Assembly (NCBI GenBank): GCA_003173915.1
Contig: PPGL01000079.1
Span: 1-33,404, forward strand
From: Candidatus Levyibacteriota bacterium
GTDB taxonomy: Bacteria; Patescibacteria; Microgenomatia; Levybacterales; UBA12049
Direction of reading: 5' to 3'
Length of the DNA stretch: 33,404 bases
A program made the position numbers and the translations under genes. Shown piece after piece: positions 1,518 to 4,187 of the stretch. The notes beneath the pieces are model-generated. The model was not told the origin of the DNA, searched no databases, and saw only the letters and a program-made list of their open reading frames with translations. Each line of letters begins with the position of its first letter. Within the stretch, counting starts at the first letter, position 1.

Positions 1518-2552
1518 GTGAAACCAAATGAATTAGCAGGACGACTTTCTGCAATGGATCGCATTCAAGCAAAATTGGGTTTGCGATTTGAAAAACCGTC
1601 TTCAGAATTTGTTGAAGGTGTGCAAGCAAGAGTTAATCGAATTGCAGGAAGTCTTGGTGTAGAACCAGTTAAGGTAACGCTTCCAAAATCTGGAAAATTT
1701 TTATCACAAAGTCTCACAACAGATCAAAGACAAGTTGTTGACAATGAATTAGGATCTGTATATGCAGCAGAAAGTGTTGCTTTGCAAGAGAGAATGCTTA
1801 GTGAGGTTAAAATTGGTGAAACAGGTGAAAGAATGGTTAGATTGGATGGAGATGATGGAGTTTTTGCACGAGAAGACGTGACGAATGTTACTTTTAGCAA
1901 TACAAAGTTCGCGCCGACGGCATTGAATGGGTGGGCTGGGAAGAGTCGTGTTTACTGGGTTCGAGAACAAGTTGCCACAAGATTAGTAAACGCAGCAAAA
2001 GCTTTAGCAGCAGAAAATATTACAATGCATATCGAAGATGCATTCAGGCCAGAAGGAGTGCAAGAAGGATTATTTTTACGAAGAGTTACTGCAACAATGC
2101 AAGATCATCCAGATTGGTCACAAGATAGAATTCTTGAAGAAGCAAGAAGTAAAACTGCAGATAGGCCTGGTATTGCTGGTCATACAGGAGGCGCTGCTGT
2201 TGATATTACATTATTGGAAAATGGGGAACGTTTGCCACTAGGAAATGAGTATCCACAAGGAGGCGCCCTGGTTGCACTTGATTGTCCATATGTTACAAAA
2301 GAAGAATGGGCTACGAGACAATTATTTGCTGCAACCATGAGAATGGCAGGACTTACCGTATATCCTGGTGAAGATTGGCATGCATCTTTTGGTGATAATT
2401 TTGCAACTGAATCGAAAGGTCCAACAATATATGGTCCAATAAGTGGTTTTGATTCAGCATCAGGAGCAGTTATAAGTCGTTCTGGGGATTACAGAAATCC
2501 TTTCTTTACCATAGACGAAATACAATCACGATTGCGTGATCTTTCTGTTTGA
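1518..2552 (+). CDS. VanX-type D-Ala-D-Ala dipeptidase (peptidase M15D), long form
   Basis: This is a zinc peptidase expected to cleave D-Ala-D-Ala or related muropeptide ends. The VanX signature is complete. An arginine lies in 'DAFRPEG' (R177), the SxHxxGxAxD-like motif is 'AGHTGGAAVDIT' (H222, D229), and the catalytic Glu/third ligand are in 'EDWHASF' (E286, H288). The protein has 344 residues against about 200 for VanX, because some 130 residues precede the catalytic core and a tail follows it. The N-terminal part has no signal peptide that I can see, so it is probably cytoplasmic, where VanX itself works. The GTG start at 1518 is chosen because the promoter places the transcript start there; ATG at 1554 is the alternative. 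It is likely a recycling or turnover enzyme rather than a resistance gene, as no vanHA genes adjoin it. Confidence 0.8.
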   Translation: MKPNELAGRLSAMDRIQAKLGLRFEKPSSEFVEGVQARVNRIAGSLGVEPVKVTLPKSGKFLSQSLTTDQRQVVDNELGSVYAAESVALQERMLSEVKIGETGERMVRLDGDDGVFAREDVTNVTFSNTKFAPTALNGWAGKSRVYWVREQVATRLVNAAKALAAENITMHIEDAFRPEGVQEGLFLRRVTATMQDHPDWSQDRILEEARSKTADRPGIAGHTGGAAVDITLLENGERLPLGNEYPQGGALVALDCPYVTKEEWATRQLFAATMRMAGLTVYPGEDWHASFGDNFATESKGPTIYGPISGFDSASGAVISRSGDYRNPFFTIDEIQSRLRDLSV

Positions 2553-2577
2553 CAGTAATTTCATGTTTTGATATGAT
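2549..2577 (+). promoter_or_regulatory. Promoter of the glycyl-tRNA synthetase leader (TTGACA-17-TATGAT)
   Basis: A consensus -35 TTGACA (2549-2554) overlaps the stop codon of the preceding gene. A 17-bp spacer leads to -10 TATGAT (2572-2577). The predicted transcript start is near 2584. This fixes the 5' end of the T-box leader and shows that there is no room for a canonical Stem I. Confidence 0.8.
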
Positions 2578-2583
2578 GCATAT

Positions 2584-2691
2584 GATTTAGGCGATGAAGA
2601 GGTGGCAACTTGGAGCTAAAAAATCAGACAAGAGAATAAAGTAGGGTGGAACCACGATTGACTCGTCCCTATACAGGTGACGGGTTTTTTT
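2584..2691 (+). promoter_or_regulatory. T-box riboswitch, glycine specifier, very short Stem I
   Basis: T-box leaders sense uncharged tRNA and control aminoacyl-tRNA synthetase genes. The diagnostic antiterminator sequence AGGGTGGAACCACG is at 2643-2656. Its bulge TGGA can pair with a tRNA ending UCCA, which fits tRNA-Gly with a U discriminator. The candidate specifier GGC (2604-2606) is followed by A, as in known glycine leaders, and the downstream gene is glycyl-tRNA synthetase. The 5' part can close as TTTAG (2586-2590) with CTAAA (2616-2620), leaving only about 25 nt in between. The distal AG-bulge/GNUG arm that binds the tRNA elbow is therefore missing. AGGG of the T-box can pair with CCCT at 2667-2670, competing with the terminator. 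Confidence 0.85.
2662..2691 (+). terminator. T-box regulated intrinsic terminator
   Basis: CTCGTC (2662-2667) pairs with GACGGG (2679-2684). CCT/AGG continues the stem inside across a one-base bulge, with loop ATAC. A run of seven T follows at 2685-2691. It overlaps the antiterminator partner, so the two structures exclude each other: the terminator forms when glycyl-tRNA is charged. Confidence 0.85.
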
Positions 2692-2711
2692 GTGTTTTAT
2701 TTTTTGATACT

Positions 2712-4187
2712 ATGAATACAATGGAAAATAAAATGGACAAGTTGGTAGCACTCGCAAAACGGCGAGGGTTTATGTACCCTGGTTCGGAATTGTATGGTGG
2801 CGTTGCAAATACCTATGATTACGGTCCAATGGGGACCGAACTTCTTCGAAACATTAGAAATCTCTGGTGGGATACATTTGTGCATAAGCGTAGAGATATT
2901 GTAGGACTTGATGCAAGTTTGATATCTCACCAAGAAATTTGGAAAGCCTCAGGGCACACTGCTGGATTTGCCGATGCAATGGTTGATTGTAAAAATTGTA
3001 AAGCGAGAATGAGAGCTGATCATTTAATAGAAAATTTTTTAGAACAGAGTTCGTCTGATGAATTAAAAAGCAAAATTTCAACTAGAGAAGATGCCTCAAA
3101 GCTTAATGAAATTATAGACAAAAAGAAAGTTGAAGGCTTGTCGACAACAGAACTAGAAGGTTTGATCAATGCATTACAAATTCCATGTCCAAATTGTGAG
3201 GAAAATAAGGGGGATATGTGGACAGGCGTGAGAAAGTTCAACTTACTTTTTCCAGTGCATCTTGGTATTGTTGAAGGAGATCAATCACTTGCTTATCTTC
3301 GTGGAGAAACTGCGCAAGGAATGTTTGTCAATTTTCAGAATGTTATTAATTCCACACGTGTCAGGTTGCCATTTGGTATTGCTCAACTTGGTAAATCTTT
3401 CCGAAACGAAATTACACCTGGAAATTCTGTATTCCGAACATTAGAATTTGAACAAGGAGAAATCGAATACTTCTTTGATCCTGAGAAAACAAATTGGGAA
3501 GAAAAATTTGAAGAATGGAAAAAACAAATGTGGGAATTTGTCACTGTTCGATTAGGTGTTCAATCCGAAAATCTTCGCTGGCGAGTACATACTGATGAAG
3601 AACGATCATTTTACAGTAAAAAGACAGAAGATTTAGAATACAACTTTCCATTTGGATTTAAAGAATTATGGGGGCTTGGATATCGTACAAATTACGATTT
3701 GACGCAGCATCAGACACATTCTGGTCGAGATCTTTCTATACTTGATTCACAAACAAATAAGCGAGTTTTGCCACATGTCATTGAACCAGCAGTTGGAATT
3801 AATCGCTTGTTACTCATGGTTTTGGCAGATGCATTTACAGAAGATACAGAAAAGAATCGAATTGTATTAAAACTTAAGCCTTCTCTTGCTCCAATAAAGG
3901 TTGCAGTATTTCCTCTTCTTGCAAATAAACCAGAGTTGACAAAATTAGCAGAAGAAGTCTATACAGCGCTAAAATCGCAGATAAACGGAGTGGTGTCTTG
4001 GGATGATCGTGGAAATATTGGCAAACGTTATTTGGCACAAGATGAGGTTGGAACTCCATTCTGTGTCACCATTGATTTTCAGAGCTTGGAGGACAACATG
4101 GTAACTGTCCGAGATCGAGACACAGCAGTGCAAGAAAGAATAGCGATTGATAATCTTGTGTCTTTTTTGCAAGAAAAACTACAGTAA
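2712..4187 (+). CDS. glyQS: Glycine--tRNA ligase, single-chain (alpha2) type
   Basis: A class II synthetase charging tRNA-Gly with glycine; single-chain type, also called glyS. Visible are the N-terminal 'KRRGF.YPGSELYGG' block and motif 2 around residues 229-252 (FRNEITP... then FRTLEFEQGE). 'HSGRDLSILD' lies near 336-345 and motif 3 'GINRLLLMV' near 362-370. A C-terminal anticodon-binding domain runs from about 385 to 491, with 'DDRGNIGKRYLAQDEVGTPF'-like segments. Two CxxC pairs (C93/C96 and C159/C162) flank an insertion and probably bind zinc. I start at ATG 2712 because an upstream reading would run into the T-box terminator; ATG 2721 and 2733 are alternatives. Expression is controlled by the T-box. 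Charged tRNA-Gly may also feed the FemAB-type transferase 24 kb away, but that is inference. Confidence 0.95.
   Translation: MNTMENKMDKLVALAKRRGFMYPGSELYGGVANTYDYGPMGTELLRNIRNLWWDTFVHKRRDIVGLDASLISHQEIWKASGHTAGFADAMVDCKNCKARMRADHLIENFLEQSSSDELKSKISTREDASKLNEIIDKKKVEGLSTTELEGLINALQIPCPNCEENKGDMWTGVRKFNLLFPVHLGIVEGDQSLAYLRGETAQGMFVNFQNVINSTRVRLPFGIAQLGKSFRNEITPGNSVFRTLEFEQGEIEYFFDPEKTNWEEKFEEWKKQMWEFVTVRLGVQSENLRWRVHTDEERSFYSKKTEDLEYNFPFGFKELWGLGYRTNYDLTQHQTHSGRDLSILDSQTNKRVLPHVIEPAVGINRLLLMVLADAFTEDTEKNRIVLKLKPSLAPIKVAVFPLLANKPELTKLAEEVYTALKSQINGVVSWDDRGNIGKRYLAQDEVGTPFCVTIDFQSLEDNMVTVRDRDTAVQERIAIDNLVSFLQEKLQ

Follow-up and report, generated by a model that had tools for sequence, protein, structure and literature searches.

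The DNA stretch analyzed here, contig PPGL01000079.1 of Candidatus Levyibacteriota bacterium (Patescibacteria; assembly GCA_003173915.1), comprises 33,404 nucleotides (nt) and is referred to below as the window. It carries a gene for glycyl-tRNA synthetase (GlyRS), glyS, that is preceded by a short RNA leader with the sequence marks of the T-box family. The glyS product is named by the NCBIfam model NF003211 (597.6 bits versus a cut-off of 312). The promoter, the T-box leader, and the terminator sit between the end of the upstream open reading frame (ORF; 1518 to 2552) and glyS, and the leader measures about 108 nt when counted to the end of the terminator (Table 1). A preliminary description, made from the sequence alone, had listed a T-box sequence, an acceptor-pairing UGGA, a competing terminator, and a downstream glyS, all of which are present; the promoter that it proposed, with an RNA start near 2584, is likewise found, and the predicted start lies at the base of Stem I.

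Table 1. Features of the glyS locus, in window coordinates
Feature	Position	Strand	Details
Promoter	2549..2577	+	-35 TTGACA 2549-2554, 17 nt, -10 TATGAT 2572-2577; predicted start ~2584
Ultrashort Stem I	2591..2616	+	~26 nt; from letters of pairs, alignment, and covariation
Stem I C-stem	G2591-C2616, C2592-G2615	+	further outer pairs possible, 2584-2590 with 2617-2625
Stem I upper stem	G2599-U2611, A2600-U2610, G2601-C2609	+	three pairs only
Kink-turn 5' strand GAUGAA	2593..2598	+	partner strand GGA 2612-2614
Apical loop GUGGCAA, 7 nt	2602..2608	+	specifier GGC 2604-2606, then purine A2607
Linker, 26 nt	2617..2642	+	AAGAG 2630-2634 and AA 2639-2640 remain; only AAUA between them, at the place of Stem III
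T-box AGGGUGGAACCACG	2643-2656	+	UGGA bulge 2647-2650
T-box + antiterminator	2641..2672	+	helices 2641-2646/2667-2672 and 2654-2657/2663-2666
Intrinsic terminator	2662..2691	+	hairpin 2662-2684, 9 pairs, one bulge, then U7
glyS, glycyl-tRNA synthetase	2712..4187	+	ATG 2712 (ATG 2721 also possible); NF003211

Stem I is, as the preliminary description had argued, too short to hold a distal half. That description had also put a GGC specifier into a tiny hairpin without saying which GGC was meant. The leader contains two such triplets, and the one in the apical loop occupies the conserved specifier place; the other, at 2590 to 2592, was considered as the specifier and ruled out, since it shares bases with the basal stem and is unconserved in the alignment described below. 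A2607, directly 3' of the specifier, stands where a conserved purine is found in known T-boxes (PMC7583486). A putative kink-turn motif is present at the Stem I base, and its internal loop (6 + 3 bases) has the same lengths as that at the Stem I base of the Rfam T-box model RF00230, where the two strands align as gaUGAa/gGA. No Stem II was seen by eye in the linker, in which no hairpin of that kind fits. The linker letters AAGAG and AA are those that normally flank Stem III in the RRRNG-Stem III-AA motif known from T-boxes (PMC7778990), and Stem III itself is lost from the glyS leader. Bases 2663 to 2670 are common to the terminator (-10.8 kcal/mol) and the antiterminator, whose stretch folded alone has a minimum free energy of -7.4 kcal/mol; going by pairing and energy, the two structures are mutually exclusive. 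We consider it very probable that glyS is under T-box control by transcription attenuation, and infer that the leader would bind tRNA-Gly and regulate the gene in response.

Relatives of the leader were sought in 283 genomes near genome G001 with a pattern that covers the T-box and antiterminator core only and leaves Stem I free. The pattern matched 45 places in 35 of these genomes, versus one match for the reversed control, and an ultrashort Stem I was read by our parser in 32 of the 45; a long Stem I was found among the remaining places at the first copy of L061, L073, L075, and L076 (L numbers designate loci). These counts are lower bounds, because the leader upstream of glyS at L050, by eye an ultrashort glycine leader with the T-box AUGGAACCGCG, escapes the pattern. 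An alignment was made of the window leader and 25 others that have glycine specifiers; the genes behind the 25 are glyS, purU, or of the glyA type encoding serine hydroxymethyltransferase (SHMT), except for unnamed genes at L061 and L072. The loop GG and the following A are invariant in all 26 leaders, and the specifier C is kept in 24; in the second copy of L067 and in the leader of L082 the codon is GGA, which also encodes glycine. On both strands of the kink-turn, the G and A positions are invariant or at least 90% conserved, and the window leader has the shared letter in every one of the 25 columns in which the other 25 leaders are identical. In the alignment, 92.9% of the cells in the Stem I pairs are paired, with a covariation score of 0.479, and on either measure none of 500 shuffles came as high; sliding the pairing register by 1 to 3 columns gave at most 49.7% and 0.150. 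Each of the three upper-stem pairs, and four of the five in the C-stem, changes on both sides in some leader. The distance from Stem I to the T-box GUGG is 21 to 58 nt in the 25 glycine leaders; six leaders have only 21 to 29 nt. Neither a double T-loop nor a Stem II is seen in the window leader or in the glycine leaders related to it in Patescibacteria.

The loop codon of the short hairpin agrees with the gene behind it in 30 of 32 leaders (20,000 permutations: mean, 15.7; maximum, 23), the set consisting of leaders that were not found with the glycine model and had a parse score of at least 20, with one duplicate stem dropped. For genes of amino acids other than glycine, 9 of 11 leaders agree (permuted mean, 2.5; maximum, 8). 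Examples are CGA before argH, CCU before the gene for ornithine cyclodeaminase, CCC before that for ornithine aminotransferase, UGG before trpB and trpE, GAC before the gene for phosphoenolpyruvate (PEP) carboxylase, and ACC before thrS. In total, 86 leader rows were available, of which 78 were parsed and 64 could be given an amino acid (14 could not, including two purU rows); subtraction of the 20 rows found with the glycine model left 44, from which one row of L074 that repeats the stem of the first copy was dropped. The parser accepts loops of 5 to 10 nt and allows two reading positions in the loop, as do the permutations. GlyRS rows were named by NCBIfam at eight loci and elsewhere by similarity to the GlyRS of the window, and some amino acids were set by us (Pro for rocD, ocd, and proC; Asp for PEP carboxylase; Gly for SHMT). 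Leaders that the parser misses and that seem right by eye, namely, L089, L099, L100, L101, L111, and several thrS leaders, were not scored as agreeing.

The variable base of the T-box goes with the gene for most amino acids, being A in 30/30 glyS and 7/7 thrS rows, T in 14/14 rows for Pro, Ile, and Val, and C in 6/6 rows for Asp/Asx and Trp. In the related genome G038, tRNA-Gly(GCC), read by eye, carries U73, matching UGGA. Promoter position in the homologues, which the preliminary description had named as a further check beside Stem I covariation and specifier agreement, also bore out its proposal: in 39 of 46 ultrashort leaders, the end of the best promoter, sought blind to Stem I, lies 0 to 20 nt ahead of that stem (median, 9 nt), versus 7.7% of shuffles that keep the letters but not the dinucleotides, and the same holds for 30 of the 35 leaders not found with R1, the glycine model. 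L069, L075, L076, L149, L099, L143, and L145 (judged spurious or long) and four tandem second copies were excluded from this set by hand.

A covariance model built from 25 related leaders, excluding that of the window, found the window leader with 64.3 bits (E value, 7.7e-12), the next best score being 5.4 bits. RF00230 aligned its antiterminator and the T-box sequence with the same leader and scored 24.5 bits, well under its cut-off of 93. None of the 20 loci with ultrashort glycine leaders passed the RF00230 gathering threshold; among ten control loci with a long Stem I, three passed (L073, L075, and L188) and seven failed, and a low Rfam score is therefore no mark of the ultrashort form. 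At an E value of 1e-5, RF00230 gave candidate matches in 40 of 145 sampled Patescibacteria genomes, with 4 above the cut-off; in six genomes of the Candidate Phyla Radiation (CPR) that were picked for a pattern match, all 21 matches at an E value of 10 fell under the cut-off, the weakest of them clearly no T-box. Of 379 genomes sampled from all over the phylum, R1 matched 26, and some of its 30 matches proved, when read, to be long-stemmed or to belong to other amino acids. In a Bacillota outgroup it matched 141 of 249 genomes; because these matches are mostly ordinary long-stem T-boxes, R1 alone does not separate the classes. Reading 20 of the Bacillota loci by eye gave 19 that are not ultrashort and one that is, L183 in genome G885, with the loop codon UGC (Cys) and placed before an ORF that by eye resembles serine acetyltransferase. 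No relative of the leader was found in viral contigs.

A number of results weigh against this reading of the leader. The score cut was set after the scores had been seen, and without it agreement falls to 31 of 43 (permuted mean, 14.9; maximum, 24), or to 10 of 20 for the nonglycine leaders (mean, 4.0; 8 of 20,000 permutations reach this); with the cut in place and three similar argH leaders taken as one, 28/30 agree and, for nonglycine, 7/9 (1 of 20,000 as high). The parser also reaches scores of 20 to 22 on L181, L187, and L197, Bacillota loci with a long Stem I by eye. Before Arg genes the variable T-box base is mixed (3 T, 4 C), and the window contains no tRNA gene. The seven pairs with both-sided changes are an ordinary count (126 of 500 shuffles reach it), and none of the six antiterminator pairs varies on both sides in the alignment. 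Unaided folding of 2584 to 2672 without the terminator favors another structure (-15.8 kcal/mol), Stem I alone does not take the drawn fold (-3.3), and a six-pair antiterminator scores only -0.7; the energy model takes in neither the kink-turn nor the tRNA. The anatomy given in Table 1 rests on comparison, because folding yields neither Stem I nor the antiterminator as the best structure. Finally, the GlyRS relatives at L001, L002, L003, and L047 (57 to 65% identity) have no such leader before glyS, either by the pattern or by eye, so that the leader is patchy in distribution; the best GlyRS matches are 65% identical at L001 (a metagenome-assembled genome), 64% at L047 (Levybacteria), and 71% in a relative of L082. 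Against the reading or neutral to it are, besides the low RF00230 score, the lack of any match above Rfam gathering in the whole window, folds of the single sequence that do not surpass those of its shuffles (z, -0.70 and +0.42), a simple promoter scan that lists this promoter as its one site versus a mean of 1.2 in shuffles, and a simple terminator scan that does not list the bulged hairpin at 2662 to 2684.

Four T-box classes are distinguished, and their specifier-anticodon contact with the tRNA is strengthened by a double T-loop in Stem I, by Stem II with its S-turn, or by both (PMC10482949, published in 2023). Class II has a long Stem I and no Stem II, whereas in class III Stem I is short and Stem II is required (PMC10482949). 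The class II leader of Bacillus subtilis glyQS resembles that of the window in being glycine specific, in having a single-stranded linker instead of Stem II, and in ending in a terminator, but has a long Stem I with a double T-loop, where the 26-nt Stem I of the window ends in the specifier loop. The class III leader of Nocardia farcinica ileS shares with it the short kink-turned Stem I, the apical-loop specifier, and the want of a double T-loop. In ileS, an apical loop of five or six nucleotides houses the specifier (the loop in the window has 7 nt), and the junction of Stems I and II is at C29-U30 (PMC10482949), so that Stem I of ileS and that of the window are alike in size; the statement in the preliminary description that these actinobacterial leaders keep a longer specifier stem was wrong. 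Class III, however, depends on Stem II and acts mostly on translation, whereas in the window no Stem II is seen and a terminator with U7 follows. By its sequence, then, the window leader combines the short Stem I of class III with the missing Stem II and the terminator of class II; its T-box sequence and antiterminator align with RF00230, below the cut-off of that model, and it belongs, by the sequence features of the T-box family, to that family and, by the class definitions, to none of the four classes. Transcriptional T-boxes are held to require a long Stem I in general, and the double T-loop has been argued to be needed for speed (PMC7583486); to that argument, the leader would be a counterexample on paper. 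Our literature search, outside of which lay most subscription papers, all preprints, and the TBDB tables, found no paper linking T-boxes with Patescibacteria, CPR, or Parcubacteria, and an earlier description is possible.

In the mechanism that we propose, the anticodon of uncharged tRNA-Gly(GCC) would pair with the GGC specifier, and the kink-turn would turn the linker back to run along the tRNA. UCCA, the free end of the tRNA, would pair with UGGA and stabilize the antiterminator against the terminator, so that glyS would be transcribed; glycyl-tRNA would be unable to do so, and transcription would stop near 2691. In this scheme, neither a Stem I double T-loop nor a Stem II S-turn would take part in holding the tRNA. 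That two contacts, anticodon and acceptor end, suffice in the cell fits the anatomy and has, in our estimate, a little better than an even chance; we do not put it higher because help could come from a protein or from a contact that was not seen. With similarly guarded confidence, we lean toward regarding the leader as a fifth T-box architecture found across Patescibacteria, consisting of a kink-turned specifier hairpin, a short linker, and the antiterminator, lacking both the double T-loop and Stem II and with a two-point reading of tRNA that is fast enough for transcription control.

The same T-box might instead have its missing tRNA contacts supplied by a kink-turn-binding protein, by the outer stem together with linker purines, or by the polymerase, in which case it would not be a two-contact switch in the cell; we regard this as less likely than not, though a serious possibility. 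The conservation of the kink-turn letters across leaders would suit a protein partner, kink-turn binders such as YbxF have been named, and T-boxes with a long Stem I lost readthrough when their double T-loop was disrupted (both PMC7583486); the six leaders with only 21 to 29 nt from Stem I to GUGG, however, leave little room for another RNA element. It is quite unlikely that the leader is a once long-Stem I T-box in decay, stripped of some parts and left as a weak terminator that is always on: the low RF00230 score and the leaderless relatives would agree with decay, but the window has kept every column invariant elsewhere, the stems covary, promoter and terminator look intact, and the form is common to many leaders. 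A further reading, with a full Stem I placed upstream of 2549 and an incidental hairpin at 2591 to 2616, is hardly credible. The RF00230 alignment does begin at 2519, but weakly and with 2519 to 2552 inside the upstream ORF, while homologous promoters stand directly before the short stem, whose codon fits the genes.

A natural T-box that bears a terminator and lacks both aids would allow the minimal requirements of tRNA sensing to be tested directly in an RNA of less than 110 nt. The leaders also point to T-box control within Patescibacteria. At L131, before an aspS-type gene, the loop codon is AAC (Asn), Stem I is ultrashort, 37 nt separate it from the T-box, and no Stem II is seen by eye; some thrS leaders (L135 to L137) may resemble it. 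The leaders of L084, L085, L086, and L094 are nearly alike, with the loop codon CGA and 127 to 140 nt from Stem I to the T-box; three stand before argH, and the ORF downstream of L084 is unnamed. Near the window leader, a terminator-like inverted repeat is present at 2525 to 2540, where the upstream ORF ends. Tandem T-boxes occur at L061, L067, L074, and L087; the second copies at L067 and L074 lead into an AGGAGG-like ribosome site with no terminator evident, an arrangement suggestive of translation control or a mixed switch.
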